From Actinomycetes bacterium (GTDB lineage: Bacteria > Actinomycetota > Humimicrobiia > JAHJRV01): a DNA stretch of 37,326 nt. The stretch lies in NCBI GenBank assembly GCA_023129485.1, contig JAGMBY010000006.1, positions 1 to 37,326 on the forward strand, written 5' to 3'. This document shows positions 2,277-24,010 of the stretch, one piece after another. The notes under the pieces were generated by a model. That model had not been told where the DNA came from and did not search any database. It saw only the letters and a list, made by a program, of their open reading frames with translations. The first letter of the stretch is position 1, and each line of letters opens with the position of its first letter. The position numbers and the translations under genes were made by a program.

Positions 2277-2612
2277 TTATCTATATTTTTCTAAAGCCTC
2301 TTTTATTTTCAATAGTTCTTTATCAGAAAGTGGTGGTATGTCATCTCTAACGCCATTTAAATAATCTTTCCACCATCTTGTTCTGTATTCTTTAAAATAT
2401 TCTGGTTTTTTATTAAATACTTTTGCTATTTTTTCTATATTCTCATTTTTTGGAGCTAAATTCTTTCTTTTTACAATATTAACCAAATAAGCATCGGACA
2501 GACCAGTTCTTATTGCTATTTGCATGTATGATAAACCACTTTTTTGTTTTAATTCTAATAGTGCATCTGCGAAATCTTTTTCTGTAAATTCGTTTTCATT
2601 ATTATTATTCAC
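2277..2612 (-). CDS. XRE-family helix-turn-helix protein
   Basis: KQKSGLSYMQIAIRTGLSDAYLVNIVKRKNLAPKNENIEKIAKVFNKKPEYF is a Cro/CI-type HTH. Confidence 0.8.
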   Translation of the reverse strand: MNNNNENEFTEKDFADALLELKQKSGLSYMQIAIRTGLSDAYLVNIVKRKNLAPKNENIEKIAKVFNKKPEYFKEYRTRWWKDYLNGVRDDIPPLSDKELLKIKEALEKYR

Positions 2613-2658
2613 AATAAAATAATTCTAAGGTATTTATTTGAAAATTTGGTTAAAAAAC

Positions 2659-2687
2659 TTGACAAAAAAAGAATAAGTCCTTATACT
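2659..2687 (+). promoter_or_regulatory. Sigma-70-type promoter for the + strand XRE gene
   Basis: TTGACA (2659-2664), 17-nt spacer, TATACT (2682-2687), in the divergent intergenic region. Confidence 0.75.
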
Positions 2688-2748
2688 ATTGTTAGTGTTA
2701 GTCCTAATTCTTATAATAAATCCTGATGTACATATATTAGACTTTAAA

Positions 2749-2982
2749 ATGGCAATGGTAAAAAAATTTAAGACTAATTTAAAAGATATTCTAAAAAATA
2801 TGGGGATAAAGCAGAATTGGCTTGCAAATAAGTTAAATAGAACTGAATCTGAAATTTCAAGGTGGGTAAATGGAGTAAGAGAACCAAGTGACGATATAAA
2901 AGAACAAATTGCAGAAGTTTTAAGACTTCCTAAATCTGCAATTTTTTTTATTAAAAAAACTAATGATAAACAAAAGGAATAA
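2749..2982 (+). CDS. XRE-family transcriptional regulator (short HTH protein)
   Basis: KTNLKDILKNMGIKQNWLANKLNRTESEISRWVNGVREPSDDIKEQIAEVLRLPKSAIFF. The ORF-track TTG start at 2689 lies at or before the expected transcription start of the 2659-2687 promoter, so ATG 2749 (or 2755) is preferred. Confidence 0.8.
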   Translation: MAMVKKFKTNLKDILKNMGIKQNWLANKLNRTESEISRWVNGVREPSDDIKEQIAEVLRLPKSAIFFIKKTNDKQKE

Positions 2983-2984
2983 GA

Positions 2985-3077
2985 ATGGATAAAAAAGATT
3001 GGTTAATTCCAATTTTATATTTAGTAGTTTTTGTACTTATTATAATTTATTTTGAATTCTTTGTTTTAAAAAGGTGA
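2985..3077 (+). CDS. Putative 30-aa single-pass membrane microprotein
   Basis: Reads MDKKDWLIPILYLVVFVLIIIYFEFFVLKR*; AAAGGA Shine-Dalgarno 7 nt upstream; starts 2 nt after the XRE gene stop; one continuous hydrophobic segment with charged ends. Confidence 0.55.
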   Translation: MDKKDWLIPILYLVVFVLIIIYFEFFVLKR

Positions 3078-3356
3078 TAGTTTAAAAGCCAGAATTTTAA
3101 AATGGCAAAAAATAAAATATATATGCCTCCCACTGCTTTATTTGCCTCTAATAGAACCATTAAAGGTGAATTTTTTAAAATATTCTTACTTTAACTATAT
3201 TTAAGAATTATTACTCCTTTTCAATTTTATTAAAATTCATTTTAAAAATTTCAATATTTGATTAATTCATATAGTTAATATAGAATTTAAAATATTATTT
3301 TTAGCTATTTTAATATATAAATTTAATTTTAAGAATTTTAGAGGTGCAAACTTAAT

Positions 3357-3418
3357 AGAAAGGGGGGTAGCTCTCATCAACTCCCTTGAGGAAAAGGAAA
3401 ATGAGCTACATTTCTAAG
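3357..3418 (+). promoter_or_regulatory. Structured leader related to the tig leader
   Basis: AGAAAGGGGGGTAGCTCTCAT...ATGAGCTACATTTCTAAG-ATG; outer stem GTAGCTC/GAGCTAC; matches 7135-7194 at both ends. Confidence 0.6.
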
Positions 3419-4120
3419 ATGAAAATTACTAGAAGACAAAGAGAGTTTCTGTCAAAATTTTTAAAATTATATAGTGAAGCAAATGGATATATTCATTATA
3501 CTGACTTGGCTAAAAAGCTTGGTGTAAGTAAATATACAGCTTATGATATGCTAAGACTTTTAGAGAAGAAAGAGTTAGTTTCTCGGAAGTATGTACTCCG
3601 TTACAAAAGGGGAAAAGGTCGATCAAAAGTTTTATTCTATCCGTTTCCTGAAGCAAAAAAATTATTGGGAGAGATATTACAGGAGGATATTGAGCATAAA
3701 AGGTGGAAAGATTTTAAGGAATTAATGTTAAAGGAGGTGGGTGTAGGAAAAAGAAAATCGTATATAAGACTTTTGAAAAGAATTTCCAAAAAGGCTGATG
3801 GAATTAGAAGACCAATGGAATATTGCACTTATTATATGATGAATCTGTTTTTAGGAATTAAGAAGTTAAAAAATGAATTTTTAAAAACTAGATTAATAAA
3901 AAATCTAAAGAAATTTAGAAAAAAAAGTAAATTGAAAATTAGTTCTCTTGCTGGACTCATTTTAGGTACATTTCAATTGGATGAAGACCTCAATGTTGAT
4001 AATGAGCATTTTTTAAATAACTTTTTAATATATCAGGAATATTTAAATGAGATGAGCAGTGAAAATAGAGATGAGTTTGATTCATTTGTAGAGGAGATAT
4101 TCAGCAAGATATTTGCTTAA
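3419..4120 (+). CDS. Winged-helix DNA-binding domain protein
   Basis: RRQREFLSKFLKLYSEANGYIHYTDLAKKLGVSKYTAYDMLRLLEKKELVSRKYVL is a winged HTH. Track start TTG 3386; ATG 3401 and ATG 3419 are in-frame alternatives. 3419 is preferred because it aligns with the tig AUG. Confidence 0.7.
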   Translation: MKITRRQREFLSKFLKLYSEANGYIHYTDLAKKLGVSKYTAYDMLRLLEKKELVSRKYVLRYKRGKGRSKVLFYPFPEAKKLLGEILQEDIEHKRWKDFKELMLKEVGVGKRKSYIRLLKRISKKADGIRRPMEYCTYYMMNLFLGIKKLKNEFLKTRLIKNLKKFRKKSKLKISSLAGLILGTFQLDEDLNVDNEHFLNNFLIYQEYLNEMSSENRDEFDSFVEEIFSKIFA

Positions 4121-4241
4121 TTTTTTTAGTAGATTATTTATTTAATTTTTTTTAAATTATTTTTTTGGTTTTTTTGGAAATTTCGAAAATGATATAAATA
4201 TAAAATTAAGAATAAAAAAATGAGGAAATAATGGAGGGTAG

Positions 4242-5429
4242 ATGTTAGAAAAATCAGAAAAAATAGTGCTTTTTAAGCAACGATTAAAAGATGCAAAAGA
4301 GGCAAACAGATATTTCTATTTAAGGGAAATTCAAAGCCCATCAATTGGCAGAGTTGTGGTTGAAGGAAAAGAATGTATTAATCTTGCTTCTTATGGTTAT
4401 TTAGGTTTAGTGGATCATCCAAAAATAATGAAAGCTGCAAAAGATGCCATTGATAAATATGGATCAGGAGCAGGGGGAGTTCGATTATTGGCTGGAACAA
4501 CATCAATACATAAAAAACTGGAAGAGAAATTAGCTGATTTTAATAAAGCTGAAACAGCAATTTTGTTTAGTAGTGGTTATGTTACAAACTTATCTACTAT
4601 TTCATGTCTGACTGGTCCAAAAGATATCATTTTGATGGATAAACTTGATCATGCTAGTATCATTGATGGTTGTATGTTATCAGGAGCTCGTTTCAAAACT
4701 TACAAACATAACAATATGGAACATTTGGAGAGAATATTGGAAAAAAGTAAGGATTATAATAATAAGATCATTATAGCAGATGGGGTATTCAGCATGGAGG
4801 GAGATGTTGCTGATCTTCCAAATATAAGAAAATTGGCTGATAAATATGAAGCAGATGTGATGATAGATGAAGCCCATTCATTGGGATTATTAGGTAAAAC
4901 TGGGAGAGGAATTGAACAGCATTTTAATATTGAGGGAAGTGTGGATATCCACATGGGAACATTGAGCAAAACGATACCCAGCGTTGGTGGTTATATTGCT
5001 GCTAAAAAGGATTTAATCGATTACTTAAAACATATTTCTAGAGGATTTGTATTTTCTGCTAGTCTTCCACCATCAGCAGTTGCAGCAGCTCTCGCATCAT
5101 TAGAAGTTATGGAGGAAGAAACCTGGAGATATGAAAAATTGAGGGAAAATACAGTAATGTTTAATCAAGGATTAATAGAAATGGGTTATAATATCATGAA
5201 TAGTGAAACTGCATTAGTTCCAGTATTAATTGGAGACGAGGAGAGAACACTGGAACTTGCTAGATTTATAAATGACAATGGTCTTTATGCCTGCCCAATT
5301 CTTTATCCAGCAATTCCAAAAAATACAAACAGAATTAGAAATCATGTGATGGCTACTCATTCAAAAGAAGATATTAAGAAAGCTTTAGATGTATATTATA
5401 AAGGTGGGAAAAAGGTAGGTATAATATAA
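4242..5429 (+). CDS. Alpha-oxoamine synthase family PLP enzyme (KBL/BioF/SPT-like)
   Basis: YGYLGLVDHPKIMKAAKDAIDKYGSGAGGVRLLAGTTSIHKKLEEKLADF, DKLDHASIIDG, DEAHSLGLLGKTGRG, Lys motif MGTLSKTIPSVGGYIA. The specific substrate cannot be assigned from sequence alone. Confidence 0.85.
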   Translation: MLEKSEKIVLFKQRLKDAKEANRYFYLREIQSPSIGRVVVEGKECINLASYGYLGLVDHPKIMKAAKDAIDKYGSGAGGVRLLAGTTSIHKKLEEKLADFNKAETAILFSSGYVTNLSTISCLTGPKDIILMDKLDHASIIDGCMLSGARFKTYKHNNMEHLERILEKSKDYNNKIIIADGVFSMEGDVADLPNIRKLADKYEADVMIDEAHSLGLLGKTGRGIEQHFNIEGSVDIHMGTLSKTIPSVGGYIAAKKDLIDYLKHISRGFVFSASLPPSAVAAALASLEVMEEETWRYEKLRENTVMFNQGLIEMGYNIMNSETALVPVLIGDEERTLELARFINDNGLYACPILYPAIPKNTNRIRNHVMATHSKEDIKKALDVYYKGGKKVGII

Positions 5430-5584
5430 AATATCAAATATTTTATATTCTCTGAGATTTTGAATTTGAGATTGTAATAACCCCTTCATAATAAATATAA
5501 AGATAGAGGTGATTTATCAATCCTCTTTATTAAATTTAATTATTAACCTTCTAAAATTATTAAGTTTTAATTAAAGTGGGGATT

Positions 5585-6175
5585 TTGAAAATATTATTAT
5601 CAATTTCACTAATAATATTAGGATATCTTTTAGGTTCAATACCTAATGTTTATATAATGGTCAAACTTTTTACAGGTAAGGATGTAAGAAAGATAGGAAG
5701 TGGAAATGTTGGTGGACTTAATGCAATGAGAAATGTGAGTTTACCAGTTGGACTTTTAGGTGGTCTTTTAGATGTAGCAAAGGGAGTTTTAGCAGTATTC
5801 TTGGCTCAAAAACTTGGATTACATGAAATAGTTCCACTTTTAACTGGAATAGCAGCAGTTGCAGGGCATAACTGGCCATTATATTTAAATTTTACAGGTG
5901 GTAAAGGAGTTGGAACAACTGTAGGTGTAATGAGTATGATAAAACCTATGGTACTTATTCCATGCTTAATAGGGGGAGTATTAATTGCTTTAATTTTAAG
6001 AGAATCATCAATTGGAGCAGTTGCAGGATTCTTAGTAGGAACTATTTATCTATGGTACACAACTAAATCCATATATTCTCTTATTTTTGGATTGATTTTA
6101 ACTTTATTCACCATAATGAGATTTAGGAAAGATTTAGTTAGATATTTAGCAAAGAAAAAAATAATTAATCCTTAA
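5585..6175 (+). CDS. plsY: Glycerol-3-phosphate acyltransferase PlsY
   Basis: YLLGSIPNVYIMVKLFTGKDVRKIGSGNVGGLNAMRN, GHNWPLYLNFTGGKGVGTTVG. Track start GTG 5576; TTG 5585 has better SD (GGGGA) spacing. Confidence 0.92.
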   Translation: MKILLSISLIILGYLLGSIPNVYIMVKLFTGKDVRKIGSGNVGGLNAMRNVSLPVGLLGGLLDVAKGVLAVFLAQKLGLHEIVPLLTGIAAVAGHNWPLYLNFTGGKGVGTTVGVMSMIKPMVLIPCLIGGVLIALILRESSIGAVAGFLVGTIYLWYTTKSIYSLIFGLILTLFTIMRFRKDLVRYLAKKKIINP

Positions 6176-6322
6176 TATCTCATCTTCTTTATTGAAATTT
6201 TTATTTTAAAAATTTATATAACTTTTTAATTGAGCATATTTCTTATAGAATCAGAATAGAAAACAAAGTTATTAAAAATTTTTAATAAATAATTGATATA
6301 ATTAGACAATAAATAAAAGTTT

Positions 6323-6399
6323 GCGCCTGTAGCTCAGTTGGATAGAGCTACGGACTTCTAATCCGTGGGTCGGGGGTTCGAATCCCTCCAGGCGCGCCA
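6323..6399 (+). tRNA. tRNA-Arg (anticodon TCT)
   Basis: GCGCCTG acceptor, anticodon arm ACGGA-CTTCTAA-TCCGT, T-arm GGGGGTTCGAATCCCTC, CCA encoded. Confidence 0.95.
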
Positions 6400-6493
6400 T
6401 TATTTCTCTTAATTTCATTTACAAATTAAAATTAATTAAACTATTTTTGTTTGAATTGAAATAATTTTAATAGTTTGAGATAATTTAGTTAAT

Positions 6494-6571
6494 GGTGAAC
6501 GTAGCTCAGCTGGTTAGAGCGCAGGATTGTGGCTCCTGAGATCGCGGGTTCAAATCCCGTCGTTCACCCCA
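6494..6571 (+). tRNA. tRNA-His (anticodon GTG)
   Basis: Encoded G-1 opposite C73, acceptor GTGAACG/CGTTCAC, anticodon arm CAGGA-TTGTGGC-TCCTG. Confidence 0.95.
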
Positions 6572-6582
6572 AGTTTTTAAAT

Positions 6583-6658
6583 GCGGATGTGGTTCAGTTG
6601 GTAGAACATCACCTTGCCAAGGTGAAAGTCGCGGGTTCGAGTCCCGTCATCCGCTCCA
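6583..6658 (+). tRNA. tRNA-Gly (anticodon GCC)
   Basis: GCGGATG acceptor, anticodon arm TCACC-TTGCCAA-GGTGA, CCA encoded. Confidence 0.95.
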
Positions 6659-6756
6659 TTCGATTATAAGGTATGATATTGTGTGAAATTTTGGGAAAAA
6701 ATTAAAAAATATCTGGAATTTTTTTTAAAATAATAAATATTTTAAAATAAATATAA

Positions 6757-6833
6757 GCGCCTGTAGCTCAGTTGGATAGAGCCGCGGACTTCGAATCCGA
6801 AGGTCGGGGGTTCGAATCCCTCCAGGCGCGCCA
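6757..6833 (+). tRNA. tRNA-Arg (anticodon TCG)
   Basis: Identical to the 6323 tRNA except around the anticodon arm: GCGGA-CTTCGAA-TCCGA. Confidence 0.93.
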
Positions 6834-6886
6834 GAAATATTTTGTAAAGCTATTTAATAAAATTTAATATAAATGCTATTAGATGT

Positions 6887-6963
6887 GGGTCGTTAGCTCA
6901 GTTTGGGAGAGCAGCTGACTCTTAATCAGCAGGTCGCAGGTTCGAGACCTGCACGACCCACCA
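6887..6963 (+). tRNA. tRNA-Lys (anticodon CTT)
   Basis: GGGTCGT/ACGACCC acceptor, anticodon arm GCTGA-CTCTTAA-TCAGC, CCA encoded. Confidence 0.95.
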
Positions 6964-6974
6964 CTATCAAAATA

Positions 6975-7059
6975 GCGAGAGTGGTGGAATTGGCAGACAC
7001 GCTAGACTTAGGATCTAGTGGGTAAAACCTTGGGGGTTCGAGTCCCCCCTCTCGCACCA
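6975..7059 (+). tRNA. tRNA-Leu (anticodon TAG)
   Basis: Class II tRNA with long variable arm; GCGAGAG acceptor; anticodon arm CTAGA-CTTAGGA-TCTAG; CCA encoded. Confidence 0.95.
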
Positions 7060-7134
7060 TCTTTATAGAAATAATATTTAGGATTTCCTTCTGGTTCCTA
7101 ATTTTTTTTTCTTGTATTTGGAAATATTATTAAT

Positions 7135-7194
7135 GGAAAGGAGAGTGGCTCTTATTATCTTCAATCAGGAAGATTATCTGAGCTCTATTTTAAG
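7135..7194 (+). promoter_or_regulatory. tig 5' leader: SD, hairpin, start codon
   Basis: GGAAAGGAG then a hairpin (GGCTC/GAGCT outer stem, ATCTTC/GAAGAT inner stem), then ATTTTAAG-ATG. No SD lies between hairpin and ATG. Confidence 0.65.
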
Positions 7195-8490
7195 ATGAGA
7201 TTAAAAACATCAGTGGAAAAAATTGAGAAAAATAAAGTGAAGATGAAAGTGGAAGTTCCAAATGAACTATTTAAAGAGGATGTAGAAAAAGCTTATGAAA
7301 AACTATCAAAATCATTGAAAATTCCTGGTTTTAGGAAGGGAAAAATTCCAAAAAAAATCATAGATACCAAAGTTGGCCAGGATTACGTTTTTAAGGAAGC
7401 TTTAAGAGAATCCCTTTTAAAATATTATTATCAATCAGTTTTAGAAACAAAAATAAGACCAATCGATCAACCTGAAATAAAAATTGGAGAAATAAAAAAA
7501 GAAAAACCTTTAAAATTTGAGGCTAAAGTATTAGTTGAACCAGAGGTGGTACTTAAAAAGTATAAGGGAATTGAGTTAAAGAAGAGAGTAGCTAGAGTTG
7601 GAAAAAAAGAGATTCAATCACAAATAGAAAGATTAAGAAATCAATTTGCAAAATTGGAAGAAGATAAAAGCAATATAATAAAAAATGAAAGTGTTGTATT
7701 AATGGATTTTGATTGCTATATTAATGATAAATTAATAAAAGAAAATAGTGGTGGTGATTACTTATTACAAGTTGGTTCTGGATTTCTCTTTGGTGAGAAA
7801 GAGAAAGAATTAATTGGAATGAAAATAGGAGATGAAAAGCAGATAGGGATTGCGTATCCAGAGGATTTTATAAATAAGAAAATAGCGGGTAAAAAGGCTA
7901 TATATCATATAAAAATTAAGGAAATAAAAAAGAAAATATTACCTGAAGTTAATGATGAATTTGCGAAGATGGTTGGTGGTTTTAAGAACCTTGACAAATT
8001 AAAAAAATATTATAGAGAAGAGATAAAAAAGGGAAAGAAGGAAAATATAGAATCTCTTAATAGAGTTAAGATTTTAGAAGAGCTGGTTAAAAGTAATCCG
8101 ATTGACATACCGGAAGTTATGATAGAAAATCAAGGCAGGCGACTTATAAATAACTTCAAACAAAATCTAGAAAAACAAGGTTCAAGTTTGGAGGAATTCT
8201 TAAGAGTAACTAATCAAAATGAAAATATATTAGAGAAGAGATATAAAGATAGAGCAGAACTTGAAATCAGGCATAGGTTGATTTTAGATGCAATTGCAGA
8301 AAAAGAGAATATAAAAGTATCAGATAAGGAAATTGATGTAGAGGCTAGAAGAATATCAAGTTATGCTAGTGATAAAATGGAAGATGTATACAATTATTAT
8401 TCTGAGGGTATAGGAAAAATTGATTTAAGATTGGAATTAAGAAGAAAAAAGACATTAAATTTTTTAATTAACAATGCAAAAATTGTTTGA
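7195..8490 (+). CDS. tig: Trigger factor
   Basis: VEVPNELFKEDVEKAYEKLSKSLKIPGFRKGKIPKKIID ribosome-binding motif; PPIase-like and C-terminal domains; adjacent to clpP. Confidence 0.95.
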   Translation: MRLKTSVEKIEKNKVKMKVEVPNELFKEDVEKAYEKLSKSLKIPGFRKGKIPKKIIDTKVGQDYVFKEALRESLLKYYYQSVLETKIRPIDQPEIKIGEIKKEKPLKFEAKVLVEPEVVLKKYKGIELKKRVARVGKKEIQSQIERLRNQFAKLEEDKSNIIKNESVVLMDFDCYINDKLIKENSGGDYLLQVGSGFLFGEKEKELIGMKIGDEKQIGIAYPEDFINKKIAGKKAIYHIKIKEIKKKILPEVNDEFAKMVGGFKNLDKLKKYYREEIKKGKKENIESLNRVKILEELVKSNPIDIPEVMIENQGRRLINNFKQNLEKQGSSLEEFLRVTNQNENILEKRYKDRAELEIRHRLILDAIAEKENIKVSDKEIDVEARRISSYASDKMEDVYNYYSEGIGKIDLRLELRRKKTLNFLINNAKIV

Positions 8491-9244: not shown

Positions 9245-9475
9245 AGATAAGAGCTGAGAAGAGAAGTAGTAAGAAGTAAGAACTCACAGAGAGAAGTTAC
9301 ATTCAGTGAGAGTAATTTTGTGAAAATCTGCTTCTGAAGTCGTCTCTGAGCTATTGGACTGAAATTAAGTAAGTCTGATCGGTAATTCCGTTATAGAAAT
9401 GAGTGCTCCCTTTTGGAGAAAGAAGGTGGTACCACGAATTATGCCCAATTCGTCCTTTTAGAATTGGGCGTTTTT
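9245..9475 (+). ncRNA. T-box leader, valine-specific (specifier GUC)
   Basis: AGAGA box CACAGAGAGAAG, specifier context CTGAAGTCGTCTCTGAGC (GUC = Val), T-box AGGTGGTACCACG, terminator stem; precedes valS. Confidence 0.9.
9443..9475 (+). terminator. Intrinsic terminator of the valS T-box
   Basis: GCCCAATTC gtccttttA GAATTGGGC GTTTTT. Confidence 0.85.
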
Positions 9476-9677: not shown

Positions 9678-12332
9678 ATGAATAAAACTATCAATAAAAA
9701 ATATAATCCTGCATTAGTTGAAGATAAAATATACGATTTTTGGTTAAAAGAGAGTTATTTTCATGTTAGTGTGGATGAAGGTAAAAAACCATACAGTATA
9801 GTAATTCCACCACCAAATCTTACTGGTGTACTTCATTTGGGTCATGCATTAAATAACACAATTCAAGACATAATTATAAGGTATAAAAGGATGCAGGGAT
9901 ATAACACGTTATGGTTACCAGGAACAGATCATGCCAGTATTGCTGTTCATAATATTATAGAGAATATAATGGCTGAGGAGGGAATAACAAGACATGAATT
10001 AGGTAGAGAAAAATTTTTAGAAAGAGCGTGGCAATGGAAGGAGAAATATGGAAACATAATCATTGAACAATTGAAGAAACTGGGTTGTTCATGTGATTGG
10101 AAAAGGGAAAGATTTACTATGGACCCAGGTTTTTCAAAAGCAGTACTTACTGCATTCAAAATGTTTTATGATGACGGACTAATTTATCAGGATTTTCGAA
10201 TGATAAACTGGTGCCCAAAGTGTCTGACTACTATTGCAGATATAGAAGTTAAGAGGGAAGTGGAGGAAGGAAATTTCTGGTATATAGATTATCTAATGAA
10301 AGGTGAAGACAACTTTATAACTATTGCTACTACAAGACCTGAAACAATGCTGGGGGACAGTGCTGTGGCAGTTCATTCTCAAGATAAAAGGTATAAATCA
10401 TATGTAGGAAAGACTGCAATTTTACCATTAATTAATAGAGAATTACCAATAATATCAGATGATAGGGTAGATCCTGAATTTGGAACTGGTGCTGTCAAGA
10501 TAACACCCGCCCATGATTTCGATGATTATGAGATTGGGTTAACTCATAATTTAGAGCAAATAAATATATTTGATGATAATGCAAAAATAAACAAGAATAT
10601 ACCGGAATATAAGGGGTTGGATAGATATGAATGTAGAGAAAAAGTGATAGAGGATCTTAAAAAATTGGGTCAATTAAGAAAAGTAGAGAAGCATAATTTG
10701 GCTATTGGAAGACATGATAGGTGTAACATCATTATTGAACCCAGAATTTCAAAACAGTGGTTTGTGAAAATGAAATCATTAGCCAATATGGGAATAAAAG
10801 TAGTAAAGGACCATAAAATTAAGTTTATACCCAAAAATTGGGAGAAGGTTTATTTTCACTGGATGGAGAATATTAAGGATTGGTGTATATCAAGACAACT
10901 CTGGTGGGGGCACAGAATTCCCGTTTGGTACTGTGAGGACTGTGATGATATTATGGTTGAGTTAGAACCACCAAAAAAATGTAAGAGTTGTGAAAGTGAA
11001 AGTATATATCAGGATGAGGATGTTTTAGATACATGGTTTAGTTCAGCACTTTGGCCATTTTCTACAATGGGATGGCCTGAACAAACAGCAGAATTAGGTT
11101 ATTTCTTCCCAACAGAGACATTAACAACAGCCAATGAGATTATCTTCTTCTGGGTTGCAAGAATGATAATGACATCATTATATTTCATGAAAAAAATTCC
11201 ATTTAGAAGAGTTTTTATCCACCCAACCATATATGATAAGTTCGGAAAAAAGATGAGCAAATCATTAGGAAATGTAATTGACCCCATTCCTGTGATGGAA
11301 AAATATGGAACAGATGCTTTAAGATTTACGCTTTCATTTCTAACATCACCTGGAAGAAATATAGCTTTGGGAGAAGAGACAATAAAAGGAATGAGGAATT
11401 TTGCAAATAAGATATGGAATGCAGCAAGATTTGTACAAATGAGTACAGAAGGAATTAATTTTAAAGATATAAATGAAGATAGCTTATGTTATCAATTAGA
11501 AGATAGATGGATTATAAGAAGATTCAACATAACAGTTAGAAATGTAATAGACAATCTTGAAGAATTCAATTTTGCTGAAGCATCAAAACAGCTTTACAAA
11601 TTCTTTTGGGGTGAATATTGCGATTGGTACATTGAACTTTGTAAAAATAGACTATATCAGGATGAGGATAAAATAGCTAAGAAAACAGCAGGATATCTAT
11701 TAATAAAAATTTTGGAGAGTTATTTAAGGCTTCTTCATCCTTTCATGCCATTTATTTCAGAAGAGATATGGCAAAGCATACCTCATGATGGTGAAAGCAT
11801 AATGATATCGCCATATCCAGAATATAAGATAGAGGAGATTGATAAAGAAGCAGAATATAAGATGGAGATTCTGATGGATGTAATAAGTGCAATAAGAGAG
11901 GTCAGAAGTCAATTATCTGTAAGTCCACAAAAGAGATTTTCAGCTTATTTAATTACAGATCATTTGGAGAAGAAAAGTCTGATAATAAAAAATAATGAAA
12001 AAATTATGAGATTAGCGGGTCTTAATAGTGTTGATTTTGTGGGTAAAATAGATGACTTAGCTAATTATTCTAAATCAATTGCATCAGGAATTGATATTTT
12101 TATTCCTCTTCTTGAATTGATTGATAGAGATAAAGAGCTGATGAGATTGAATAATCGTCTTGGTGAAGTTAAAGAAAGATACGAAAGAAGTTTAAATAAA
12201 TTTTCTAACAAACAATTCTTAGAGAAGGCTCCTGAGCAAGTTGTTTTAGGAGAAAGAGGAAATTTAGAAAAATTTAAAAAAGAGATTGTAAGTATAGAAG
12301 AGCAAATATCAATTCTAAAAAGTAAAAAATAA
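9678..12332 (+). CDS. valS: Valyl-tRNA synthetase
   Basis: IVIPPPNLTGVLHLGHALNNTIQDIIIRYKRMQGYNTLWLPGTDHASIA, KMSKSLGNVIDP, coiled-coil C-terminus. Confidence 0.98.
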   Translation: MNKTINKKYNPALVEDKIYDFWLKESYFHVSVDEGKKPYSIVIPPPNLTGVLHLGHALNNTIQDIIIRYKRMQGYNTLWLPGTDHASIAVHNIIENIMAEEGITRHELGREKFLERAWQWKEKYGNIIIEQLKKLGCSCDWKRERFTMDPGFSKAVLTAFKMFYDDGLIYQDFRMINWCPKCLTTIADIEVKREVEEGNFWYIDYLMKGEDNFITIATTRPETMLGDSAVAVHSQDKRYKSYVGKTAILPLINRELPIISDDRVDPEFGTGAVKITPAHDFDDYEIGLTHNLEQINIFDDNAKINKNIPEYKGLDRYECREKVIEDLKKLGQLRKVEKHNLAIGRHDRCNIIIEPRISKQWFVKMKSLANMGIKVVKDHKIKFIPKNWEKVYFHWMENIKDWCISRQLWWGHRIPVWYCEDCDDIMVELEPPKKCKSCESESIYQDEDVLDTWFSSALWPFSTMGWPEQTAELGYFFPTETLTTANEIIFFWVARMIMTSLYFMKKIPFRRVFIHPTIYDKFGKKMSKSLGNVIDPIPVMEKYGTDALRFTLSFLTSPGRNIALGEETIKGMRNFANKIWNAARFVQMSTEGINFKDINEDSLCYQLEDRWIIRRFNITVRNVIDNLEEFNFAEASKQLYKFFWGEYCDWYIELCKNRLYQDEDKIAKKTAGYLLIKILESYLRLLHPFMPFISEEIWQSIPHDGESIMISPYPEYKIEEIDKEAEYKMEILMDVISAIREVRSQLSVSPQKRFSAYLITDHLEKKSLIIKNNEKIMRLAGLNSVDFVGKIDDLANYSKSIASGIDIFIPLLELIDRDKELMRLNNRLGEVKERYERSLNKFSNKQFLEKAPEQVVLGERGNLEKFKKEIVSIEEQISILKSKK

Positions 12333-23164: not shown

Positions 23165-23818
23165 ATGGTTAGAAATATTAATAAAATTATTATGCGTTTT
23201 AGATTTTCGAAACAGAATGATATAAAATATATATCTCATTTAGATTTGATTACTCTATTAATAAGAGCATTAAGAAGGGCAAAAATACCAATTCATTATT
23301 CAAGGGGATATCATCCTAAACTAAAATTATCAACTGCATTTGCATTAAAAGTAGGATGGGAAAGTATAGGTGAGTACGCCGATATAGTTTTAAAAAAGAA
23401 GCTATTACCAGATCTTTTTAAAGAAAGATTGAATAATCAATTACCAGAGGGAGTAGAAATTTTAAAAGCAATATGTGGGAGTTCGTCTAAGTCACTTTCA
23501 AATCAAATAAATTGTGCAAAATATCAGATAACATTGTCTCATTACCATAAAAAGAAAGAATTGGAGAAAATTAAGAAGGTCCAATATTTTAGAGAGCGGT
23601 TATTTAACATTAAAATAAGAGAACTAAATAATAATATTTTAATATTAAATTTTTTAACACCTATTGGTAGTGGAAATGACTTAGATATCAATGATTTTAT
23701 TAAATTTTTAAACTCCATAAAAAATGAGTTAAGATTTATTTTAAAGAGAGTTTTAAGAGTAAATATGTATAGAAAGGAGGGGGATTTTCTTTTAAGCCCC
23801 TTTTCATTATTGAAATAA
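23165..23818 (+). CDS. DUF2344 / TIGR03936 family protein
   Basis: MRFRFSKQNDIKYISHLDLITLLIRALRRAKIPIHYSRGYHPKLKLSTAFALKVGWES, directly after its radical SAM partner. Confidence 0.85.
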   Translation: MVRNINKIIMRFRFSKQNDIKYISHLDLITLLIRALRRAKIPIHYSRGYHPKLKLSTAFALKVGWESIGEYADIVLKKKLLPDLFKERLNNQLPEGVEILKAICGSSSKSLSNQINCAKYQITLSHYHKKKELEKIKKVQYFRERLFNIKIRELNNNILILNFLTPIGSGNDLDINDFIKFLNSIKNELRFILKRVLRVNMYRKEGDFLLSPFSLLK

Positions 23819-24010
23819 TCGTATTGATCTTTAAGATAAATAAGGGGATTTTTTATGTACATTTTTTAAACACTTTTGAAAAATTCAACTTGTAATTTCA
23901 ATTTTCAAAAGAAGAAACACAATTTTTAATTATTATTTATTATAATACTTAAATGAAACTCAAATAATTATTTAATTTTTTTAAACAAGGGATATATAAA
24001 AGAGATTTTT

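Follow-up and report, generated by a model that had tools for sequence, protein, structure and literature searches.

Leader elements of tig and a winged-helix-like gene

The window (the whole 37,326 nt stretch of DNA analysed here) carries tig, which encodes trigger factor, and a winged-helix-like gene, each preceded by a leader with an extended SD (Shine–Dalgarno) sequence and a hairpin (Table 1). The initial annotation had noted that these two leaders resemble one another, and rereading of the sequence bore this out: the 5′ blocks are identical at 17 of 23 nt, all six differences being transitions, and the 3′ blocks agree at 17 of 19 positions with one gap. The stems described for both leaders are also present, although the outer stem of the winged-helix leader lies at 3367–3373/3403–3409 and not, as first placed, at 3368–3405; the elements themselves extend slightly beyond the range given at first. 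The similarity is not due to chance, because the shared 23 nt pattern, allowing up to three mismatches, has 16 occurrences across four congeneric genomes, compared with none for a reversed-pattern control. Each of these 16 places is just 5′ of an ATG, save one that is cut by a contig end. Orthologues of the winged-helix-like gene were found only in G001–G004 among 61 genomes. Elsewhere in the window, a T-box leader (Rfam RF00230, 121.9 bits) lies at 9247–9460, ahead of an 884-codon ORF at 9678.

Table 1 Features of the two leaders and their genes (window coordinates)
Feature	Position	Strand	Basis
Winged-helix gene leader element, putative solo IscB right end, in all four congeners	3355–3418	+	R1/R2 scores
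Extended SD of the winged-helix leader, AGAAAGGGGG	3357–3366	+	16S-tail duplex energy
Winged-helix leader hairpin; outer stem GTAGCTC 3367–3373/GAGCTAC 3403–3409	3367–3409	+	Sequence, folding, covariation
Winged-helix-like gene, 3′ of the element	3419–4120	+	Weak sub-cutoff Pfam winged-helix matches
tig leader element, putative solo IscB right end (extended SD, hairpin, A/U-rich spacer)	7133–7194	+	R1/R2 scores; homology to iscB 3′ ends
21-codon open frame overlapping the tig start, MERRVALIIFNQEDYLSSILR	7133–7198	+	Read from sequence
Extended SD of the tig leader, GGAAAGGAG, approx. 50 nt from the tig AUG	7135–7143	+	16S-tail duplex energy
tig leader hairpin; outer stem GGCTC 7147–7151/GAGCT 7180–7184, inner stem ATCTTC 7157–7162/GAAGAT 7169–7174	7147–7184	+	Sequence, folding, family covariation
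tig, trigger factor	7195–8490	+	Pfam Trigger_N, Trigger_C

A family of elements at start codons

Covariance models were built from ten copies (R1), from 25 copies (R2) and only from leaders without iscB (R3), and this genome (G000) and the congeners G001, G002 and G003 were searched with R1 and R2. This search, which the initial annotation had proposed, found further copies: there are three in this genome (at the winged-helix gene, tig and, as the third, enolase), eight in G001, eight in G002 and nine in G003. The tig leader scored 69.4 (R1) and 60.2 bits (R2) and the winged-helix leader 71.7 and 71.8 bits, values that are not independent, as both leaders are members of the training sets. A start codon follows every one of the 28 genus-wide matches, one of which is cut by a contig end. 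A further weak match in the window (23769–23841, 24.8 bits, E 0.0024) overlaps the end of an ORF at 23165–23818 with no start codon after it; it is either chance or a dead right end and was left out of the family count. Outside the genus, in a 398-genome sample of the phylum, the models match copies in G009, G019 and G143 only, all of them linked to iscB. The named records that fit the pattern are Actinomycetota metagenome assemblies.

Besides tig and the winged-helix gene, the downstream genes encode, according to Pfam, an EF-G-type GTPase, a nucleotidyl transferase (rfbA-like), GltX, ribosomal protein L34 (rpmH), GatC, CobO, TadE, an iPGM-like protein, an N-acetylmuramoyl-alanine amidase and enolase. 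These genes share no common pathway and the set varies between species, so that the regulatory link once suggested between tig and the winged-helix gene is unsupported and a regulon of the two was rejected. In one of these cases (L091:3407–5014 in G003:C100, with the same start in G001:C105), the gene after the element resembles a circularly permuted iPGM, with the metalloenzyme part first and the iPGM N-terminal part second, and starts at what is an internal ATGA in the usual gene order.

The winged-helix element is present in all four congeners, and the eno element is found in this genome and, in a diverged SD–hairpin form, in G001 and G003. The rfbA-like and gatC elements occur in G001–G003 and the cobO element in G002 and G003, none of the three being in G000; the TadE element occurs in G001 and G002 and is absent from G000 and G003. 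The tig element of this genome is not conserved with tig orthologues, since tig in G001 and G003 has a plain leader. Where orthologues with and without an element are compared, similarity begins at the start codon.

A covarying hairpin between the SD and the AUG

The hairpin between SD and AUG is conserved, as judged from covariation in two alignments. In alignment A3, 84% of stem cells were paired, with 22 double-change cells compared with 6.8 in shuffles (0/500), and in the leader-only alignment A5 the values were 81.5% and 18 compared with 9.0 (0/500). In slid controls, pairing fell to 30–53%. Compensated forms of the outer stem include GGCTC/GAGCC, GACTC/GAGTC, CAGCTC/GAGCTG and GGTTC/GAACC. 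These data uphold the earlier proposal of a conserved cis-acting element in which the stems are kept and the interior varies; the stems covary, and the element recurs in this genome and in relatives. The support for the structure comes from covariation and not from folding energy: the minimum free energy of the tig and winged-helix leaders was no better than that of shuffled sequence (z=−0.16 and −0.88). Some family copies have imperfect stems.

A strong SD at an unusual distance

Read 5′ to 3′, the family consists of AGAAAGGAGG, an outer stem such as ATGGCTC/GAGCCAT, a variable inner hairpin, (C)ATTTTAAN and the ATG. In two congeners 16S rRNA ends in GGATCACCTCCTTTCT, the last ten bases of which are complementary to AGAAAGGAGG. 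The calculated duplex with the 16S tail is −13.3 kcal/mol in the tig element compared with −1.9 kcal/mol at the usual position, and −15.6 compared with −3.5 kcal/mol for the winged-helix gene; the means for 15 leaders of the genus are −14.5 kcal/mol in the element and −3.2 kcal/mol near the AUG. For thirteen other genes of the window the means are −4.9 kcal/mol at the usual position and −1.9 kcal/mol far upstream. Both the tig and the winged-helix leader thus have a strong SD that is too distant from the AUG and none at the usual position, and most copies lack a good near SD, one winged-helix copy having in addition a fair SD near the AUG. The distance from SD to ATG is 50–54 nt in the leaders and 62 nt at eno. 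Some winged-helix copies contain in-frame upstream ATGs, which are possible alternative starts. Predicted accessibility of the SD averages approx. 0.5 and is alike in solo leaders and intact elements (0.48 and 0.53 respectively). Pairing of the SD with the U-run that precedes the AUG is also possible; this pairing and the moderate accessibility would leave room for regulation.

Homology with the right ends of IscB/HEARO elements

An Rfam search of the flanking DNA revealed a HEARO RNA 1.3 kb upstream of one copy. In G003 the order is HEARO (111 bits), an iscB with RRXRR and HNH domains, and an ATGAAA that is the start of a MazE-type antitoxin gene; the last codons of iscB, KTLLIERRMALLPYLKEGVSEP, are the leader element itself. 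IscB is of the type ancestral to Cas9. R3 matches iscB 3′ ends or tails at 77.9 (G009), 77.6 (G003) and 73.8 bits (G019), and two intact elements of G143 at 34.8 and 32.4 bits. Since R3 was trained without iscB, its finding of iscB 3′ ends and tails identifies the leaders as IscB right ends, and a descent of the tig and winged-helix leaders from the right ends of IscB/HEARO elements is strongly supported by this homology. The two genes would then have a leader in common because in each case such an insertion sequence inserted before ATGA. In the iscB tail the codons E-R-R read GAAAGGAGG and I-E-R-R read ATAGAAAGGAGG. The open frame in the tig leader is probably a relic of the iscB C-terminal frame, as comparison of MERRVALIIFNQEDYLSSILR with the iscB tail LIERRMALLPYLKEGVSEP suggests.

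Three intact HEARO–iscB elements, one in G003 and two in G143, lie between the native SD of a gene and its ATGA start. Their left flanks end in the native SD (TATAGGAGGTATTTT, GGATGGGAGGACATT and CGAAGGAGGGTGGCC) and their right flanks begin with the ATGA of the gene; therefore the element inserted between SD and AUG, substituting its own SD. The NTGA motif, including ATGA, is the measured target-adjacent motif of the related IsrB (PMC9581776). It is found on the right flank of the elements at tig (ATGAGA) and the winged-helix gene (ATGAAA), and nearly all copies have ATGA, gatC having ATGG.

The leaders thus resemble IscB/HEARO (OMEGA; Rfam RF02033 with RRXRR/HNH IscB) in matching the iscB 3′ end and right-end hairpin, followed by ATGA as in intact elements, whereas the window copies are right ends only, with HEARO, iscB and left end absent. 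No HEARO match was obtained at 2500–7300 of the window and no iscB is detectable in this genome, the source element being seen only in relatives. Miniature non-autonomous IS200/605-type elements are short, carry a transposon-end hairpin but no transposase or nuclease gene, and keep both ends. An internally deleted IscB element in G009 (L083/L089) is of this type, whereas the window copies show the right end only and are, for that reason, probably immobile. In L090, a perfect 16 bp repeat, ATTAATAGAAAGGAGG, precedes iscB and recurs in its tail, and recombination between SD-like repeats such as these may be one way in which the body is lost and a solo end is left.

Solo IscB ends as putative split ribosome-binding sites

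We consider it probable (roughly three chances in four) that the leaders are solo IscB right ends which inserted 5′ of ATGA and have been retained as split ribosome-binding sites. According to this model, an IscB/HEARO element (OMEGA, IS200/605-type) would insert immediately 5′ of an ATGA that is often a start codon, and its right end would bring an extended SD (originally the iscB codons I-E-R-R), a subterminal hairpin and an A/U-rich spacer up to the AUG. The SD of the element would substitute for the native SD that has been cut off from its gene, and the hairpin would absorb most of the distance, placing the SD at approx. 8–13 nt from the AUG (counting unpaired bases) and so permitting 30S initiation. 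The rest of the transposon would later be lost and the end retained as the leader of the gene. Use of the SD by the ribosome through the hairpin, selection that keeps it and the route to solo ends are the parts of this model that we infer from sequence.

In phage T4 genes 25 and 38, the SD is 27 and 22 nt from the AUG and an intervening hairpin restores a working distance, as shown experimentally (PMC3014915). By analogy with these genes, retention as split sites is the most likely explanation of the leaders, which likewise have an SD too far from the AUG with a hairpin between. They differ from the T4 sites in their spacing of approx. 50 nt and in being recurrent elements of transposon origin at many cellular genes, for which this role is predicted. 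Against a split-site reading stand the shuffle-level folding energy, the moderate SD accessibility, the imperfect stems, the 62 nt spacer of eno, the upstream ATGs of the winged-helix copies and the lack of iscB in G000.

Homology with the iscB right end would by itself suffice to explain the sequence if the ends were neutral debris and translation relied on something else, and some IscB elements do lie in unrelated places, such as within a coding gene (L159). We regard this as unlikely, because the SD and stem are kept where the coding constraint of iscB is gone, eno retains both in G000, G001 and G003 despite its diverged sequence, most copies would be left without a good SD near the AUG, and the SD–AUG distance is steady at 50–54 nt outside eno.

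A trans-regulated cis RNA (a riboswitch, or a site for a protein or small RNA) governing a regulon that includes tig and the winged-helix gene is decidedly unlikely. Conservation of the 5′ block and of one strand of the stem, GCTCTY, exceeds what pairing requires, and the U-run is predicted to be able to sequester the SD; however, descent from a single transposon end accounts for this conservation, and the downstream genes lack a common pathway and differ by species. Rfam models matched none of the leaders to a known riboswitch or leader family, and an Rfam family of that kind was rejected. The role of the element is therefore likely to be in translation initiation rather than in a shared regulon.

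Open frames run to the start codon in the tig, winged-helix, EF-G, gltX and rpmH leaders, and the iscB of intact elements can itself terminate on or beside the downstream start, as would suit a leader peptide whose translation is coupled to that of the next gene (for tig, the frame ending over its ATG). Early stops in the rfbA, gatC, cobO, TadE and iPGM leaders make this very unlikely, with no frame or peptide conserved across the copies; in addition, several copies lack a usual start codon with an SD, and the likeness of the peptides is explained by the iscB C-terminal frame. It is hardly credible that the 5′ part is mainly a promoter with the SD and hairpin secondary, for although an A/T-rich TATTAAT-like block precedes many copies (just before AGAAAGG), it is part of the iscB reading frame (codons for L-L-I) in intact elements, and inspection by eye showed no consistent −35.

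Generality among IscB elements

The SD–hairpin–ATGA layout also occurs in IscB elements on named plasmids of Bacillota, Fusobacteriota and Pseudomonadota, before annotated or likely starts, in a comparison that was a sample and not a census. An Anoxybacillus plasmid element has TTGAAAGGAGG, a hairpin and ATGAAA; the left flanks of elements on Paenibacillus and Finegoldia plasmids are GGAGGAATAAGA and TAGGAGATTTTTCAA respectively; and elements on Cetobacterium, Shewanella and Pseudoalteromonas plasmids have the layout of the leaders. In Ligilactobacillus the SD (AGAAAGGAG) lies 3′ of the iscB stop and so is not merely a set of codons. The layout may therefore be general among IscB elements. Two sister right ends, L158 (G013:C158) and L111 (G019:C57), have the SD after the hairpin (CAAAGGATGGAAG followed by ATGAAA and CCAAGGAGGTAGA followed by ATGAGC), which is a second way of providing an SD at the start codon. 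The first layout is not universal, because no SD precedes the hairpin in IscB elements of Aneurinibacillus, Pontibacillus and Geoalkalibacter or in the dnaE-linked copies of G009 and G031.

These dnaE-linked copies (L156 in G031:C18 and L157 in G009:C80) lie just upstream of a dnaE-like start, at the same site in two species, with no SD beside the ATG. Another IscB element (L159, G001:C54) apparently interrupts a dnaE-like gene, identified by eye, at an ATGA within its coding sequence, and IscB insertion is thus not restricted to start codons.

On balance we favour the view that a widespread class of IscB (OMEGA) elements is adapted to start-codon (NTGA) targeting, carrying in its right end a portable ribosome-binding site (SD–hairpin–ATGA or hairpin–SD–ATGA) by which the target would stay translated, and that hosts have repeatedly domesticated such ends as housekeeping leaders. 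A search of the open-access literature found no report of IscB ends as ribosome-binding sites; judged on that literature, it appears to be new that the end of a transposon should carry its own signal for translation initiation and be retained by the host as a leader.

If correct, this model would account for the survival of target genes when a transposon lands at their start codons, and the leaders would represent a repeated case of transposon ends becoming the translation signals of central genes (those for the EF-G-type GTPase, gltX, rpmH, eno and tig). They would also provide natural, comparable split ribosome-binding sites outside phage T4, and would allow host gene expression to be linked, in a single testable model, with the target motif of IscB and the end of the transposon.
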